From Nitrospinaceae bacterium (GTDB lineage Bacteria; Nitrospinota; Nitrospinia; Nitrospinales; VA-1), in the NCBI GenBank assembly GCA_029261595.1, contig JAJDAZ010000039.1, positions 85,861 through 149,860 of the forward strand: a DNA stretch of 64,000 nt. The letters are read 5' to 3'. Within the stretch, counting starts at the first letter, position 1, and the number at the start of each line of letters is the position of its first letter. The notes under the pieces were generated by a model that was given only the letters and a program-made list of their open reading frames with translations, ran no database searches and was not told the DNA's origin. Both the position numbers and the translations under genes were made by a program. Shown piece by piece: positions 17,807 to 25,409 of the stretch.

Positions 17807-19156
17807 ATGCGGTACATACCCCATACCGAAAAAGACATTCGAGAGATGCTCGCCAAAATTGGCGTGAAAAATGTCGAGGAGTTATTTGACAGCATCCCGA
17901 AAGAGTTGCGTCTGGGCGAACGACCGCTCGATCTTCCCAAAAGCCTGGCAGAATCAGAATTGACCGCCTTTCTTGGCCGGGCGCAAAAAAGAAACGTCAA
18001 CGCCGGAGACGTTTCTCTTTTCCTTGGAGCAGGTGCTTACCGACATTTCAGCCCCGCGTTGATCGACCACTTGATTTCCCGTGGCGAATTTGCTACCAGC
18101 TACACCCCCTACCAGCCGGAAGTCAGCCAGGGAACCCTGCAGGCGATTTTTGAATTCCAGACCATGATCACCCTGCTCACCGGCATGGACATTGCCAACG
18201 CCTCCATGTACGACGGCGCGTCCGCCCTGGCTGAAGCTGTGATCATGGCGCAACGGGTGACCAACAAGCAGGAAATTTTAATCTCCCGCGCCGTACACCC
18301 CGAATACCGGCAGGTGGTCGAAACTTATACCCGCGCCAATCAAATCGAACTCGTTGAAATTCCCTTTGCCGCCAATGGAAAAACCGATGTCGATTCCATA
18401 GTGGATCGATTGAGCGATCAAACAGCGGCGGTGGTTTTACAGAGTCCCAATTATTTTGGAGTCGTTGAAGAATATACCGGATTGAAAAAACATTTGACCG
18501 ACCGGGGAGCGCTCTTGATCGTGGCCGTGGCGGAGGCGCTTTCACTTGGTATCCTGAAACCACCGGGAGAACGGGGCGCCGATATCGTCGTCGGCGAAGG
18601 CCAGTCCTTCGGGCTTTCCTTGTCCTACGGCGGACCCTATGTGGGGTTTTTCGCCACTCAGGATAAGTTCCTCAGGCAAATGCCGGGCAGACTGGTTGGG
18701 GAAACCGTGGACCGTGAAGGGCAAAGATCCTACGTCCTCACCCTGTCCACCCGGGAACAGCATATCCGGCGTGAGCGGGCCACATCCAATATCTGCACCA
18801 ATCAGGGGTTGTGCGCCCTGGCCGCAACTATTTATCTTGCCACCATGGGCAAACAGGGCTTGCGCGAAGTCGCGTTGTTGAACGTGAGAAAAGCCGATTA
18901 TTTAAAAAACCGCTTGCGTAAGATCAAAGGATTTAAAATCCGCTTCGACGCCGATACCTTCAACGAATTTGTCCTGGAATGCCCCAAACCCGCCGAAGAA
19001 ATCCGCGACACCCTCCTGCATGAGGCTAATATCTTAGCCGGTGTCCCGCTCAAGACCCATTACCCCGAACTTGAAAACAGTCTGCTACTCTGTGCCACCG
19101 AACTCAACACCCAGGAAGAAATGGACCACCTCGCCGACAAACTGGAAGGGATGTGA
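17807..19156 (+). CDS. gcvPA: Glycine dehydrogenase (decarboxylating) subunit 1
   Basis: RYIPHTEKDIREMLAKIG; FLGAGAYRHFSPALIDHLISRGEFATSYTPYQPEVSQGTLQ; ATSNICTNQGLCALAA. Confidence 0.95.
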   Translation: MRYIPHTEKDIREMLAKIGVKNVEELFDSIPKELRLGERPLDLPKSLAESELTAFLGRAQKRNVNAGDVSLFLGAGAYRHFSPALIDHLISRGEFATSYTPYQPEVSQGTLQAIFEFQTMITLLTGMDIANASMYDGASALAEAVIMAQRVTNKQEILISRAVHPEYRQVVETYTRANQIELVEIPFAANGKTDVDSIVDRLSDQTAAVVLQSPNYFGVVEEYTGLKKHLTDRGALLIVAVAEALSLGILKPPGERGADIVVGEGQSFGLSLSYGGPYVGFFATQDKFLRQMPGRLVGETVDREGQRSYVLTLSTREQHIRRERATSNICTNQGLCALAATIYLATMGKQGLREVALLNVRKADYLKNRLRKIKGFKIRFDADTFNEFVLECPKPAEEIRDTLLHEANILAGVPLKTHYPELENSLLLCATELNTQEEMDHLADKLEGM

Positions 19157-19177
19157 AGAGTTACTAAATTCATCTCA

Positions 19178-22100
19178 TCAGGGGGATACTGACTCCCCAA
19201 TAAACAAGACAGCCGTTTCAAAATTTTCGACGGTTTTTTGTCTTTTATCGAGAAATTTATTCAACGGCCCAGAAATGGTGGATTTAAAATCGGAAATGGC
19301 AAATTTCTTTGCTTTTTCCAAGTTGGCCTTTTTTGTTTCTTCCGTTTCGTTAAGCTGGTTGATTCTTGATTCTAAATCCTTTTTAAAATATTTGATGGCT
19401 TTCAAGGTTTTGTTAATCTCCTCCCCAATCGGGATCTCATCTTCACCGGCCTTTTTTTCGACCTCTTTCAATTGAGTATCGGAGGCGGTGCCCAGAGTAG
19501 TTTTAATTTTTTCCATGGCGTCACTGTCAACCTCTTTATTCTTGTCCCAACTGTTTTCGATATCACTTTTTAGGGAAGCCATAATCAGCTTGATTTCTTT
19601 TAAAGCATCCTTGGATTGATCGTCATATTTTTTCTTTGATTTAACATATTGCCGCTCAAGAGGCGTTCGGGGAGTCATAGCCTGCTGGCCTTGGACCTGC
19701 TGAGCCGCTCCATCGGCCTGGTCCCCTAAACCAGTGGTTCCCGGCACGCTTCCCCCGGTGTCGGGAATATCGGATAAGAGATTGGTTCCCAAGCCCGGCC
19801 CCATGCCAAACATCGCGAGGTTTTTGGCGGATTTAATAATGTCTTTGGGGTCCGCAGAATAATTTTTTACGTACCAGTTGCCGAGATCATCCTTGGCGAC
19901 GACGTAATTGGTATTTCCTCCGCCGGTCAGTTTCACCCGGTTGATGTTCTGCCAGTACTGTTTGTCGATTTCCTGATTGATTCTCAGTCGGTTCTTTGTC
20001 TTTGAATCTTTAAACCAATCAGTATCAGCAAACGGTAAACTTTTAACTGTATTTTCCAAGAGCATATTTTTCCATTCGATGGAGGCGTCCGCCTGTAATG
20101 AAGTTGACGGGAAACTGTTTCTCAGGTAGGAAAATGCCGGGCGGATAAAAGACATCCCGCCCCGTTGTTCATAGGCTAGCTTTAAGGCATCCGCAATCTG
20201 TTTTGCAGTAGCGGATTTCTCTCCGCCGGCACGGACAGCATTAATATGTTCGTATCTCAAGGAAGCGATCAACTGATCCAAAACTTCCTTTGCTTCCATG
20301 CCCTCTAGAAATTCGGGTTCCTTAAACGGAAAATCCATATCTCCCAAACGAGTTGTTAGATAGGCATTGGCGCTTATTAATTTTTCATTATCAGTTAAGG
20401 GCTTTTCTTTTTCAGGATCTTTGGGTTTGTTTTTAGGATCGCCATTCTTACCAGGAGCCTCCGCTTTTGCATCGTCATCTTTTTCCGCATCATCGGTTTT
20501 TTTTGCAGGTTTGTCCTCTGAAGAAGGTTTCCCAACGCTCGGAGTAACCTTTGAAACTAAAATAGAACCCTGGTCTGGCGGTGTAGCTTTACTTTTGGCC
20601 TTAGCTTGAGGTGTCGTTGTTTTAGCAGGAACAACTGCCTTTCCACCTATTTTTCCTGCTGCGGAATTTTTTTCCTTCTCTGAGACTTTTGCAAGTTCCT
20701 CTACCAATATTTCACTAATTACTATTTTGACCATCTTGGGGTCATTTTTTGACTCCCTATTATTTATTCTATCCAAAATTGCAATACGATGCTTTTTAAC
20801 AAACCATGAGGCATTCTCCCTCTTGGTTCTTTCCTCAGCGATTTTGTCAGTGAGCGCGTCCTCCTCCTTACCAACGTTGGTTTTGGCGGTTGATTCCGCT
20901 TTTTTTGCATTTTTTACAACCTCATCGGCATCAGCCAAACCCTTTTTTGCATTGGCTAATTCTGTTTTCAAGTAATCGATAATAGAATTATAAATTGTTT
21001 TCCGATCCCCACTTTTCTCCTTGATTGCATCTTTGGGCACATCATCCTTAAAAAAGTCATGAAGCAATTTTATTTGCTCTATGCTTAGCTTACTCATGCC
21101 CTTTGTCGTTGGGCTACCCTTCGACATTGAAGTGGTTAAAAGGTCTAACAAGGCATTGAGGTTGGTGGGGTTCTGAACCGGTGTTTTAGACAAAATATTG
21201 TCCAATACAATTTTCTGACCCCCTGGATTCTCCTTTGTCGGGTTCTTTGTTGGATCCTTTGTCGCATTAAGAATGGATTCAAACTTGGTTTTTTCGGTAT
21301 CAGCATCTTTTTGTTCCTTTTCCGCCTCAGCCAAACCATTCCTCGCTTTTTCATGAGCTTTCTTGGCCTTGTCAATGGTTTTCTTCAGTGCCTTCCATTC
21401 AGCCTCTTTGAGGATGACATTCCCTGCGGCGTTCTTTTCAACTTCCAAAGAAGCAATTAATTCTTCCACCACGTCGTATGATCGCTTAGTCAACAGCGCG
21501 GATACCGCCCTTCGTTCCCGTTTAGCCCATTGGTCTTTCTTTTTTGCCGTGTGTTCATTACGAACGGCCAATTCATCAATCTGGAATAAAATGGAATTTC
21601 CTACCGCCTGCAAGACCATCACATAACTATCGAGATCGTTTACTGGGGAAGCATCTAACCCTGCGAAACTCAATTGATAGTTATCCGGGTAGGGATTAAG
21701 CAATATGCCGTAGTTCGCCAGAAAAAGAATTTTTTCCGCAAAGTGGGCAAGGCCAATATGAAGGTCTTTCAGGTTTTGCTTAATTTCCTCATCAGTTCCG
21801 GTTCCTTTATTCCTATTTTTCAAATAAGTTTCGATTTGAGTTTCCAAGCCATCTTCCCACCTTCCCCGACTCAAGGGGTCTGAAAGTTTACTTGTCAACA
21901 GATTTGAATCCATCCATATTGTGTCAAGTTTGGATTCCAAGATTCCTGATAAAGGTTTACCGGTTAATTTTTTCAATAGGACGACTAAGTATCCTGCTTC
22001 ACCCCAATATTTTTTTAATTTTGGATATTTCTTTAAGTTGGTCTCTAAACCTTCGAATAAGACCTTCAACCTCTTAACGGAGTTTTCAGTTTTTTCATTG

Positions 22101-23068
22101 GACCCTGCAACCCTAGTAATTTGGTCCAGGAACTCCTGCCTGATTTTTGATTTCTTGTCTGGGAATAATATGGCGGCATCCCATTGGAGGTTTTTTTCAT
22201 TACTCAATAGGTTGAACATTGTTTTAAATTTATCTGCTGGCAGAGTGCCCTGCGGAGATTCAATAGATATCTTTAAAAGGCCCGTTGGATTAATAAATTC
22301 TGATTTTGAATTAAAAAATCCAGGTAATGCTTCACGGGCATCGGATAATTGTTGAATATTACGTCCTCGTTTATTCTGAGATGGCAGGAAAAACTTTTCA
22401 TATGCGGCTTCCAGCTGTTGTATCTCGGCAATCAACTCAACCCTCTTTAGAGCGAGATAATCTTCTTTGGCAGTTGTGTTAGTTTTGATAAATTTATCAA
22501 CCCCACGATTAGCTCCGGTCCTGAAGGCACTCTGAATTTTCTTCCAGGCCTTTTGGGATTCATCATAATTTTTATTAAAAAAGATATCCCTCTCGCGTTT
22601 GAAAACTTTTAATTCTTCTTTAATATTTCTCACATCGATTTCAATTTGCACGGGCAGATTTGAATAATCCCGGTCCTCATACAAGCCTAAAATAGCGTTC
22701 ACTCGACCCGCGTTTTCATCTTTGAAATTATAATTTTTTATGTGGCCAAACGAATACCCTTCGCAGGAGCGAATATTCCAAGTGTCTGGCTCTTTTTTGC
22801 AGAGTTCTATTGAATACTTTGGCGGGTTTCCATCTGATTCGGCTTTAATTTCTTTCATTCTGGTTTCTTCAAGCCCGTTTCGTAATTGAATCAGAATGGG
22901 CTTCGCCCCAATGGCCATCACGGTCAACTGCTCGGTTTGAACCTCCTCATGATTCGCCAGGGGGCCTTTATAGACATCCACATCCACCGTCAAAGCGGCG
23001 CAACCGGTGAGCCCCATCAAGAGTAACAGCGACAAAGTTAGCTTTCCAAATTCAGAATTTATGTTCAT
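19178..23068 (-). CDS. Very large lipoprotein of unknown function
   Basis: 1296 aa; LLLLMGLTGCAALTV lipobox; extended coiled-coil/charged regions, Lys/Pro/Glu low-complexity linker, and a C-terminal GGGNTNYVVAKDDLGNWYVKNYSADPKDIIKSAKNLAMFGMGPG block. Confidence 0.8.
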   Translation of the reverse strand: MNINSEFGKLTLSLLLLMGLTGCAALTVDVDVYKGPLANHEEVQTEQLTVMAIGAKPILIQLRNGLEETRMKEIKAESDGNPPKYSIELCKKEPDTWNIRSCEGYSFGHIKNYNFKDENAGRVNAILGLYEDRDYSNLPVQIEIDVRNIKEELKVFKRERDIFFNKNYDESQKAWKKIQSAFRTGANRGVDKFIKTNTTAKEDYLALKRVELIAEIQQLEAAYEKFFLPSQNKRGRNIQQLSDAREALPGFFNSKSEFINPTGLLKISIESPQGTLPADKFKTMFNLLSNEKNLQWDAAILFPDKKSKIRQEFLDQITRVAGSNEKTENSVKRLKVLFEGLETNLKKYPKLKKYWGEAGYLVVLLKKLTGKPLSGILESKLDTIWMDSNLLTSKLSDPLSRGRWEDGLETQIETYLKNRNKGTGTDEEIKQNLKDLHIGLAHFAEKILFLANYGILLNPYPDNYQLSFAGLDASPVNDLDSYVMVLQAVGNSILFQIDELAVRNEHTAKKKDQWAKRERRAVSALLTKRSYDVVEELIASLEVEKNAAGNVILKEAEWKALKKTIDKAKKAHEKARNGLAEAEKEQKDADTEKTKFESILNATKDPTKNPTKENPGGQKIVLDNILSKTPVQNPTNLNALLDLLTTSMSKGSPTTKGMSKLSIEQIKLLHDFFKDDVPKDAIKEKSGDRKTIYNSIIDYLKTELANAKKGLADADEVVKNAKKAESTAKTNVGKEEDALTDKIAEERTKRENASWFVKKHRIAILDRINNRESKNDPKMVKIVISEILVEELAKVSEKEKNSAAGKIGGKAVVPAKTTTPQAKAKSKATPPDQGSILVSKVTPSVGKPSSEDKPAKKTDDAEKDDDAKAEAPGKNGDPKNKPKDPEKEKPLTDNEKLISANAYLTTRLGDMDFPFKEPEFLEGMEAKEVLDQLIASLRYEHINAVRAGGEKSATAKQIADALKLAYEQRGGMSFIRPAFSYLRNSFPSTSLQADASIEWKNMLLENTVKSLPFADTDWFKDSKTKNRLRINQEIDKQYWQNINRVKLTGGGNTNYVVAKDDLGNWYVKNYSADPKDIIKSAKNLAMFGMGPGLGTNLLSDIPDTGGSVPGTTGLGDQADGAAQQVQGQQAMTPRTPLERQYVKSKKKYDDQSKDALKEIKLIMASLKSDIENSWDKNKEVDSDAMEKIKTTLGTASDTQLKEVEKKAGEDEIPIGEEINKTLKAIKYFKKDLESRINQLNETEETKKANLEKAKKFAISDFKSTISGPLNKFLDKRQKTVENFETAVLFIGESVSP

Positions 23069-23095
23069 AGCTTCAGCGTCCGTTTTTAGTAGGTA

Positions 23096-23728
23096 TTATT
23101 CAGTGATGTCTTTTTTGAGTTCGCCCAGCGTGTCTTTCTCATTCTTGACGTTTAACAAGGCTTCAAAGAGAAGTTTATTTAGCCTGGAATTATTTTGGTC
23201 CTGCTGGGCTTGAGATACTGACCCTAAAGCGCCGTCAATGGCGTCGAAATAGGCTTCCGGGCTGGAACCCATGACGATCACCAGACGATGGTCCTTGGGT
23301 GCTTCACGAAACCCTTCCGGGCCAAACTGGACCAAGCGTCGCCCCGTCTGAATCGCGGACAATTGATCTTCTTCACCGTGGGTGATTTTTGTCAGCCCGG
23401 TTTCTTTGTCGGTGGATATCTGGGAATTTAGAGAATCAATCAAACCGGCGGGAACCCAGCCGGACCCAAACCTCATTCGACTGATGGCGCTGGCCTGACC
23501 GCGGACGGTGACTCGATAAATGGTGGGAGGGATCTGGTCTTGAGGGTCAAAAACACCCAGGTAGTACACCTGCTCCAAACTGTTCGAAGGCGTCATGCCG
23601 GTCACGGTGGTGACTCCCAGAGTGCCTCCGATGATTCCCTCGGTAGAGCATCCTTGCATAAAAAAAGATACTCCAAAAAATAAACAGAAAAGAACCAATC
23701 GCCTTTTAGCCAATAGCAGTCGCTTCAT
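23096..23728 (-). CDS. Lipoprotein of unknown function, cotranscribed with the 1296-aa lipoprotein
   Basis: From MKRLLLAKRRLVLFCLFFGVSFFMQGCSTEG (probable lipobox Cys); AAGGGAG upstream; 27-bp gap to the next gene. Track start at 23848 is probably too far upstream. Confidence 0.75.
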   Translation of the reverse strand: MKRLLLAKRRLVLFCLFFGVSFFMQGCSTEGIIGGTLGVTTVTGMTPSNSLEQVYYLGVFDPQDQIPPTIYRVTVRGQASAISRMRFGSGWVPAGLIDSLNSQISTDKETGLTKITHGEEDQLSAIQTGRRLVQFGPEGFREAPKDHRLVIVMGSSPEAYFDAIDGALGSVSQAQQDQNNSRLNKLLFEALLNVKNEKDTLGELKKDITE

Positions 23729-23790
23729 TGGAACTCCCTTCGTGAAACCAGCGTTAATGAGAGAGACGAGTTTTAATTCTATATGGATGG

Positions 23791-23806
23791 CCGAACTATA
23801 GTTCGG
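23791..23806. promoter_or_regulatory. Perfect 16-bp palindrome, candidate operator
   Basis: CCGAACTATAGTTCGG equals its own reverse complement; 62 bp upstream of the 23728 start codon. Confidence 0.55.
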
Positions 23807-24032
23807 AAATTCAAAATTTTCAAGACAAAATATCGCCGAATCGGACAACTCCTTTAAATACGATAAGTTTCCGATTTCGGAATTCTTTTGTTGTTACAAC
23901 TCATTGAAATTTTAACCATATTACTTTTTTTTGCCTAAACAGGCTTTAATTGATTCCGTTAAAGATAAGATTTATTGATATTGTTGGAGGGATATAGGGA
24001 AATGGGAATTTAATATTGGGTAAGCAAAAAAA

Positions 24033-25409
24033 TTAATTGCTCAATTGTTCAATCAAATCTTCAGCAGGGTAGGTGATGATTTCCGACAAGGTGGGGTGGT
24101 AGTGCGGGATCTTTACGAGGTCGTGAACGGTTCCGTTAAAGTGCATGAGGGTGATGAGTTGATGGATCAACTCTCCGGCTTCGGGGCCGACAATATGGGC
24201 GCCGATGACTTCGCCCGTTTTTGGGTGGCACAATAGTTTGACATGGCCGTCAGTTTCTCCCAGACAAATGGATTTTCCATGATCGTTAAAGGGATAGGAT
24301 GCCGTGAGGTAGGGAATGTTCCGCGCCTGACATTCTTTTTCGCTGAGTCCCACGCTGGCCACTGCCGGGTCGGTGAACACCACGCTGGTTTTTAATCGAT
24401 CATCCATTTGACGGGGCGGCTGGTCGGGGTGGACGGCGTTGTATGCCGCGATCTCGCCCTGCTCGATGGCGATATGGACGATCTCGTGCAAGCCGTTCAC
24501 GTCGCCGACCGCAAAAATATGCGGTTGCCCGGTGCGCATTTCGGAATTTACCACGATGCGTCCCATGTGGGTTTCGACTCCCGCTGATTCCAGATTGAGC
24601 CCGTTGGTGTTGGGGCGGCGTCCCAATGCTTGCAGGATGTGCTCGGCGCGGACGGTTTTTTCCTGATCCTCATGAACGAATCGAAGAACACGTTCATTAC
24701 CCGCTTTGGCAACATTAAAAATTTTTGTGCCAGTATAGACATCCATGCCTTCTTCTCGGAACCTGTCTTCGACAACGCGCGCCAGGTCTTCGTCTCCGCT
24801 GGATAATATCTGTTGACTGCGTTGGATGAGGCTGACCTTGACTCCGATGCGCGAGAAAAACTGCGCCAGCTCGACCGCGACCGGGCCGGCCCCGAGAACG
24901 ATCAACGATTTTGGAGCCTCCCGCATTTCAAGAGCGTCGTCGCTGGTGAGGTATCCAGATTCTTCAAGGCCGGGCACGGGAAATTCCGAGATTTTTGAAC
25001 CGGTCGCGATGATGAAATTTTTTGCGTTAAGGGTTTGGTTTCCGACCTGGATTTCGTGCGGCGAAAGAAAGGTCGCAAAATCTTCAAAGAGAGTGAAACC
25101 GGGGTCCTGCAACTGTTCGACACGGTATTGGGTGAATTCGCCAATGATGCGGTTTTTGCGGTCGTTGATGGCGGCAAGATCCGCCTTTGCCTCAACGGGC
25201 AATAGACCGAATTCCTGCGACCGGCGTTGGAGCGCCATCAGATCAGACGAGCGGAGGATGGTCTTGGTGGGCATGCATCCTTTCAGAATGCACAAACCGC
25301 CCAGCGGACCGTGGTCCACGATGGCGACTTTCGCCTTGGCTTCCTGAGCGGTCCGGGCCGCCGCATAGCCTGCGGACCCTCCCCCGATTATGATGACATC
25401 AAAGTCCAT
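24033..25409 (-). CDS. Dihydrolipoyl dehydrogenase-family pyridine nucleotide-disulfide oxidoreductase
   Basis: DVIIIGGGSAGYAAARTA; redox pair GGLCILKGCMPTK; second GxGxxA loop; C-terminal HYHPTLSEII retains the catalytic His. Confidence 0.88.
   Translation of the reverse strand: MDFDVIIIGGGSAGYAAARTAQEAKAKVAIVDHGPLGGLCILKGCMPTKTILRSSDLMALQRRSQEFGLLPVEAKADLAAINDRKNRIIGEFTQYRVEQLQDPGFTLFEDFATFLSPHEIQVGNQTLNAKNFIIATGSKISEFPVPGLEESGYLTSDDALEMREAPKSLIVLGAGPVAVELAQFFSRIGVKVSLIQRSQQILSSGDEDLARVVEDRFREEGMDVYTGTKIFNVAKAGNERVLRFVHEDQEKTVRAEHILQALGRRPNTNGLNLESAGVETHMGRIVVNSEMRTGQPHIFAVGDVNGLHEIVHIAIEQGEIAAYNAVHPDQPPRQMDDRLKTSVVFTDPAVASVGLSEKECQARNIPYLTASYPFNDHGKSICLGETDGHVKLLCHPKTGEVIGAHIVGPEAGELIHQLITLMHFNGTVHDLVKIPHYHPTLSEIITYPAEDLIEQLSN

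Follow-up and report, generated by a model that had tools for sequence, protein, structure and literature searches.

In a 64,000-nucleotide stretch of the genome of a Nitrospinaceae bacterium (contig JAJDAZ010000039.1 of an assembly of 3.78 Mb in 71 contigs; the whole stretch is hereafter called the window), two adjacent minus-strand genes encode a small and a large putative lipoprotein. Sequence comparisons support the view that these genes form a self-contained two-gene unit, which recurs in many phyla. The pair is without a family, a fold or a paper describing it among Pfam, NCBIfam, PHROGs, the PDB and the literature. We tentatively interpret it as an obligate two-subunit envelope complex that would scaffold or gate envelope hydrolases, a reading to which we lean while placing its chance somewhat below even.

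A strictly paired two-gene unit

The small gene (23096..23728) encodes a 211-amino acid (aa) protein with a predicted signal peptide at residues 1–26 and a putative lipid-bearing Cys27. It comes first and is followed, after a gap of 27 bp, by the large gene (19178..23068), whose 1296-aa product has a predicted signal peptide at residues 1–22 and a putative lipid Cys23. The lipoboxes, MQGC in the small protein and LTGC in the large one, follow hydrophobic stretches, and neither protein contains any other strongly hydrophobic segment. These coordinates and the spacing agree with a first-pass annotation made from the DNA letters alone. Judging by homologues that are conserved across both proteins in many phyla, both open reading frames (ORFs) are real genes. 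No RNA families were found in the tract, and promoter- and terminator-like sites occur there no more often than expected by chance.

Among 84,980 species genomes scanned, 109 relatives were found; 80 of these were kept, and 75 loci were fetched. Pairing was counted over 77 loci, 73 of which are testable in that both sides are visible; in the other four, the large gene lies at, or no more than ~330 bp from, the start of the sequence examined. All 73 testable loci, which represent at least eight phyla, have the small gene immediately upstream of the large gene and in the same orientation, with a 4-bp overlap as the most frequent arrangement (29 of 73 loci). Six other Nitrospinota genomes carry the large gene, and the small gene adjoins it in every one. 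Furthermore, distances among the small proteins correlate with those among the large ones (Spearman coefficient of 0.42 over 61 loci, 0 of 1000 permutations). Clustering of 1087 neighbourhood ORFs revealed no conserved third gene and thus no larger operon. The first-pass annotation had described the pair as self-contained and had named separation of the two genes in other genomes as the result that would speak against it; the genes are kept together.

A short protein encoded beside several betaproteobacterial pairs (L187:5036-5506, minus strand; L048:14005-14472; L064:8657-9289; L065:8671-9342) looks alike by eye from locus to locus and may be a third partner restricted to this lineage.

The lipid Cys is kept in 62 of 75 large and 71 of 73 small proteins. 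Because the lipoboxes are conserved, an envelope location, which had been proposed at the outset, appears probable. In Escherichia coli, the residue that follows the lipid Cys bears on the outer-membrane destination of a lipoprotein. In the large proteins this residue is Ala or Ser and never Asp, which fits sorting to the outer membrane under the E. coli rule. We infer from these signals that both proteins are lipidated and most likely reside in the outer membrane.

Searches for families, folds and literature

Neither window protein matched any Pfam or NCBIfam family above cut-off or any PHROGs family, and single-sequence and profile searches of PDB sequences gave no meaningful match for either. 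Matches to coiled-coil, apolipoprotein and antibody chains in the PDB were dismissed as chance. A comparison of the small-protein model with the PDB and with viral models (Foldseek) returned nothing at E ≤ 0.001 and no PDB fold at E ≤ 0.5. The model of a large-protein homologue returned nothing from the PDB at E ≤ 0.001 (best E = 0.01, template-modelling (TM) score ≤ 0.17). No family search, hydrolases included, detected an enzyme family or an enzyme-like feature in either protein, in agreement with the lack of enzyme motifs noticed initially. A literature search on the motifs of the pair and on its neighbour combinations found no relevant description. Homology to a characterised family, which had been named in advance as grounds for abandoning the idea of an undescribed system, was thus found in none of Pfam, NCBIfam, PHROGs and the solved structures.

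Several known systems share partial features with the pair. The F-BAR proteins PACSIN/syndapin and the tripartite α-pore-forming proteins AhlB and SmhB contain long antiparallel or amphipathic helices similar to the predicted arms of the large protein, as does apolipoprotein A-I, a sequence profile match, with its amphipathic helices. The F-BAR, AhlB and SmhB structures, however, superimpose with a root-mean-square deviation that is mostly above 13 Å and do not share the β core, the lipidation or the motifs of the large protein. Comparison of the sequences and models indicates that the likeness to all three groups is a resemblance of long helices and not kinship. The small protein, a small lipoprotein with an all-β domain, is reminiscent of TssJ-like β-sandwich outer-membrane lipoproteins, but it has no match in Pfam and none among PDB folds at E ≤ 0.5, and its long C-terminal helix is not found in TssJ. 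Its assignment to the TssJ family of type VI secretion was rejected: a fold or family match is absent and no tss-like gene recurs in the neighbourhoods.

Architecture of the two proteins

An AlphaFold2 model of the small protein, derived from a 65-sequence alignment (predicted local distance difference test (pLDDT) score of 80.7), contains, in this order, the signal peptide, a short helix, eight strands (residues 49–154) and one long helix of 53 residues (157–209). The predicted β domain (residues ~49–154, 23267..23584, minus strand) carries the motifs YYLGVFDPxEQ, YRVxVxGQAS and FGPEGFR, and the invariant or near-invariant residues of the family sit in YYLGVFDPxEQxP, YRVxVxGQAS and FGPEGFR...RLV...M. 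The C-terminal helix (23102..23260, minus strand) is predicted with a pLDDT of ~90.

For the large family, we modelled a compact homologue of 724 aa (51 sequences, pLDDT 82.2, predicted TM score 0.54). In this model, a strand directly follows the lipid Cys, a three-strand meander bears the invariant W..N...D..GNW residues, and the rest is helical, with a final helix of 84 residues. Projected onto the window protein (all features on the minus strand), the N-terminal block (residues 23–80, 22829..23002), delineated by alignment and the homologue model, comprises the predicted strand VDVDVYKGPLAN right after the lipid Cys and a conserved helix; VYKGPL and Q44 are invariant in our alignment A1 of large proteins. 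A central conserved helical block, GRWEDGLE ... VLQAVGNSILFQIDEL, spans residues ~400–510 (21539..21871) in a 75-sequence alignment. The C-terminal core (residues ~925–1100, 19769..20296), IRPAFSYLRNSFPST ... WQNINRVKLTGGGNTNYVVAKDDLGNWYVKNYSADP, is more highly conserved than any other part of the family, and its W, N, D and GNW residues are invariant in the alignments. A C-terminal helical region (residues ~1130–1296, 19181..19681) corresponds to long helices in the homologue model.

Two elements of the large protein had been described initially in terms that need adjustment. The "C-terminal block" GGGNTNYVVAKDDLGNWYVKNYSADP is real (residues ~1048–1075) and lies where the family is best conserved, yet the protein does not end there: ~210 more residues follow, mostly predicted to be helical in homologues. 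The Lys/Pro/Glu-rich linker is also present (residues ~800–895, 20384..20671), but it is lineage-specific and missing from most relatives.

Intact large homologues range from ~440 to 2016 aa, and their lengths differ chiefly between the conserved blocks. Such variation would suit a purely structural scaffold or adhesin, in which a lipid-anchored core carries helical stalks that either extend to the surface or set the spacing of membranes or peptidoglycan, and in which hydrolase neighbours would be incidental. The lack of any matched enzyme family agrees with such a role, as does the presence, inside the large protein of one Nitrospina relative (G037), of three Calx-beta domains, which are common in surface proteins. 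The likeness of the family to Calx-beta surface proteins (PF03160) is limited to this protein; the domains are an isolated insertion, absent from the other 34 large proteins scanned, that of the window included. The invariant polar and aromatic residues (YKGP, Q44, W..N, KD..GNW), on the other hand, suggest a specific binding site and not a mere spacer. We regard the structural explanation as a serious one that nonetheless falls on the unlikely side.

The large gene of G037 is broken into three ORFs (L015:6302-12214, minus strand); it is either a decaying gene or the product of assembly or frameshift errors.

The strand straight after the lipid Cys and the conserved meander could also be read as parts of a channel or transport complex, in which lipid-proximal strands and helical arms would multimerise into a pore or into a conduit that spans the periplasm and carries lipid or protein. 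CsgG and TolC-like factors provide precedents for lipoprotein channels, and the predicted helices are possibly long enough to cross the periplasm. The strands per chain, however, are few, and a search of PDB folds matched neither CsgG, TolC or TssJ nor any lipid-transport protein, with LolA appearing only at E = 0.73 and a TM score of 0.16. A channel is thus the least probable of the functions that we considered. The machine, scaffold or surface-anchored apparatus suggested initially is plausible, and among these the models lean towards a scaffold bearing long helical arms.

Distribution, gain and loss of the pair

Besides Nitrospinota, the pair is found in Pseudomonadota, Planctomycetota, Verrucomicrobiota, Nitrospirota, Rokubacteria, Binatota, Tectimicrobiota and others. 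Its presence is sporadic: it occurs in 7 of 77 genomes of Nitrospinota and is rarer elsewhere. Counts for individual groups were 8 of 63 genomes of one alphaproteobacterial order, 3 of 349 of one betaproteobacterial order, 8 of 392 of the phylum around a planctomycete and 2 of 388 around a verrucomicrobium. The pair is chromosomal and generally present once per genome, and no match was found on plasmids or in phages. The tree contains two old subfamilies, with the signature VDVDVYKGPLAN or VEVEVYKGPLSK; the branch that divides them is very long and has full support, and each subfamily contains a mixture of phyla. The alphaproteobacterial genome G117 carries one pair of each subfamily (L091 and L052) on the same contig, so the subfamilies are not simple alternatives.

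The pair in the window lies between gcvPA (17807..19156, plus strand) and a dihydrolipoamide-dehydrogenase-like gene, lpd (24033..25409, minus strand), which flank the insertion site on the left and right, respectively, and are not part of the unit. In the same-genus genomes G024, G026 and G027 and at the second gcv locus of G025, the site is empty and gcvPA faces lpd directly, with tens to ~200 bp between them. A genome of another genus, G028, contains the pair and a patatin gene at the identical spot. In G018, the slot holds a patatin and no pair, and in G020 a patatin lies beside lpd near the end of a contig, with one further gene, for an unrelated exported protein, between them. The slot variants among Nitrospinota therefore show that the gcvPA/lpd slot repeatedly gains or loses accessory genes. 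This convergent boundary (19156-24033 in the window; L014, L151-L154, L167, L168) is a recurrent accessory-gene slot of the phylum. The congener G025 has two gcvT-gcvH-gcvPA loci on separate contigs (L150, L151), ~94% and 70% identical to the window gcvPA, which are either paralogues or the sign of a mixed bin.

The tract had been called AT-rich and possibly horizontally acquired. The first description fits the large gene (GC content 0.418, GC content at third codon positions 0.434; z = −2.7 and −3.0 relative to 30 long ORFs of the window), whereas the small gene is near-native (0.502 and 0.559). The pair of G028 repeats this split (large 0.433, small 0.517), and much of the AT-richness of the large gene may reflect the abundance of Lys and Asn in its product. 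A recent acquisition of the whole unit, as read from base composition, was rejected, since the small gene is native-like and only the large gene is AT-rich. Horizontal gain or loss of the pair is nevertheless supported, because (i) the site is cleanly empty in congeners, (ii) the presence of the pair is sporadic, and (iii) phyla are mixed in the trees.

Sporadic presence, a phylum-mixed tree and swapping at one chromosomal slot would also be expected of a selfish or conflict cargo module, for instance a complex that confers immunity to, or guards against, attack by lipases, which spreads by transfer and confers a conditional benefit. Patatin, subtilase-like, SNase and amidase-like hydrolases among the neighbours point the same way. 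PADLOC matches, however, are no more frequent in adjacent than in distant genes, and a single copy per genome and the lack of plasmid or phage matches are at odds with such a module, making it an improbable one. A role as an anti-phage defence module or an association with defence islands was rejected, as there is no PADLOC enrichment beside the pair.

Hydrolase neighbours and proposed function

Lipases and esterases adjoin the pair at about one in eight loci. These are patatin-like phospholipases and α/β hydrolases (PF01734, DUF900, LCAT/DDHD-like), which we regard as possible partners; neither subunit is itself a hydrolase by family search. Large membrane patatins lie beside the pair in three phyla (L014, L072 and L073, in G028, Limisphaerales and Tepidiphilus, respectively), and VHGMG-type α/β hydrolases at L015, L093, L095 and L098 (Nitrospinota, Alteromonadales and another proteobacterium). 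The neighbour is a DUF900 hydrolase in two Planctomycetota (L040, L045). Nuclease- (SNase), amidase-, subtilase- or phosphatase-like genes are occasional neighbours, the subtilase being recognised by eye from motifs only. In Nitrospinota, patatin and pair occupy one common gcvPA/lpd slot. Of 128 adjacent genes, 7 contain a generic serine-hydrolase motif, compared with 2 of 629 others (Fisher p ~1e-4, in a test devised after the pattern had been seen). This over-representation speaks against the hydrolases being incidental to a structural scaffold, although most loci have no enzyme neighbour, as such a scaffold would predict. The hydrolase link is, on these gene positions, a tentative lead only.

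The richest hydrolase cluster among the loci is that of Tepidiphilus sp. J10 (L073:8629-18831), in which C92 amidase-like, subtilase-like and 1355-aa patatin genes flank the pair and share its strand; the N-terminus of this patatin resembles a peptidoglycan-binding domain. A related 1216-aa patatin in the Nitrospinota genome G009 (L169:5716-13599), which lacks the pair, lies near proteins that by eye resemble a DUF2235-type hydrolase and a TIR protein. Neither the 465-aa gene beside the G020 patatin nor a 1372-aa gene beside a Verrucomicrobia pair is a member of the small or large family.

We propose the following model. The small and large proteins, which are likely to work as one complex and, we infer, physically associate, would be obligate subunits and outer-membrane lipoproteins turned towards the periplasm. 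The large protein would supply a membrane-proximal β core, formed by the post-Cys strand and the W/GNW meander, and long helical arms of variable length, while the small protein would supply a β domain and a long helix able to pack with these arms. The anchored scaffold or gate would then hold, deliver or restrain envelope hydrolases, chiefly lipases and esterases, some of them encoded beside the pair and others elsewhere.

Five observations weigh against this model: (i) about seven in eight loci, the window among them, have no adjoining hydrolase; (ii) none of four additional loci has a hydrolase neighbour; (iii) the serine-hydrolase test is post hoc, and one of its seven adjacent matches (L059) is probably false; (iv) several large proteins of subfamily 2 are without a lipid Cys at the usual place; and (v) the modelled large homologue is only 27% identical to the window protein. 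In its broader form, in which the pair would represent an undescribed class of envelope apparatus with unsolved folds, transferred across diderm bacteria and capturing, gating or delivering lipid-acting hydrolases at the outer membrane, the proposal is doubtful, with roughly three chances in ten.

Implications

That the two genes remain strictly paired over at least eight phyla without belonging to an annotated family argues strongly that they serve an unrecognised function in the envelope. The pair is present in cultivated hosts, namely Pseudoduganella flava and strains of Duganella and Ideonella, making its role directly testable, and the gcvPA/lpd slot of Nitrospinota, which is found empty, with the pair only, with pair and patatin, and with patatin only, offers a natural comparison. 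The patatin/lipase link, if true, would point to an unrecognised mechanism by which bacteria manage phospholipases at their surface.

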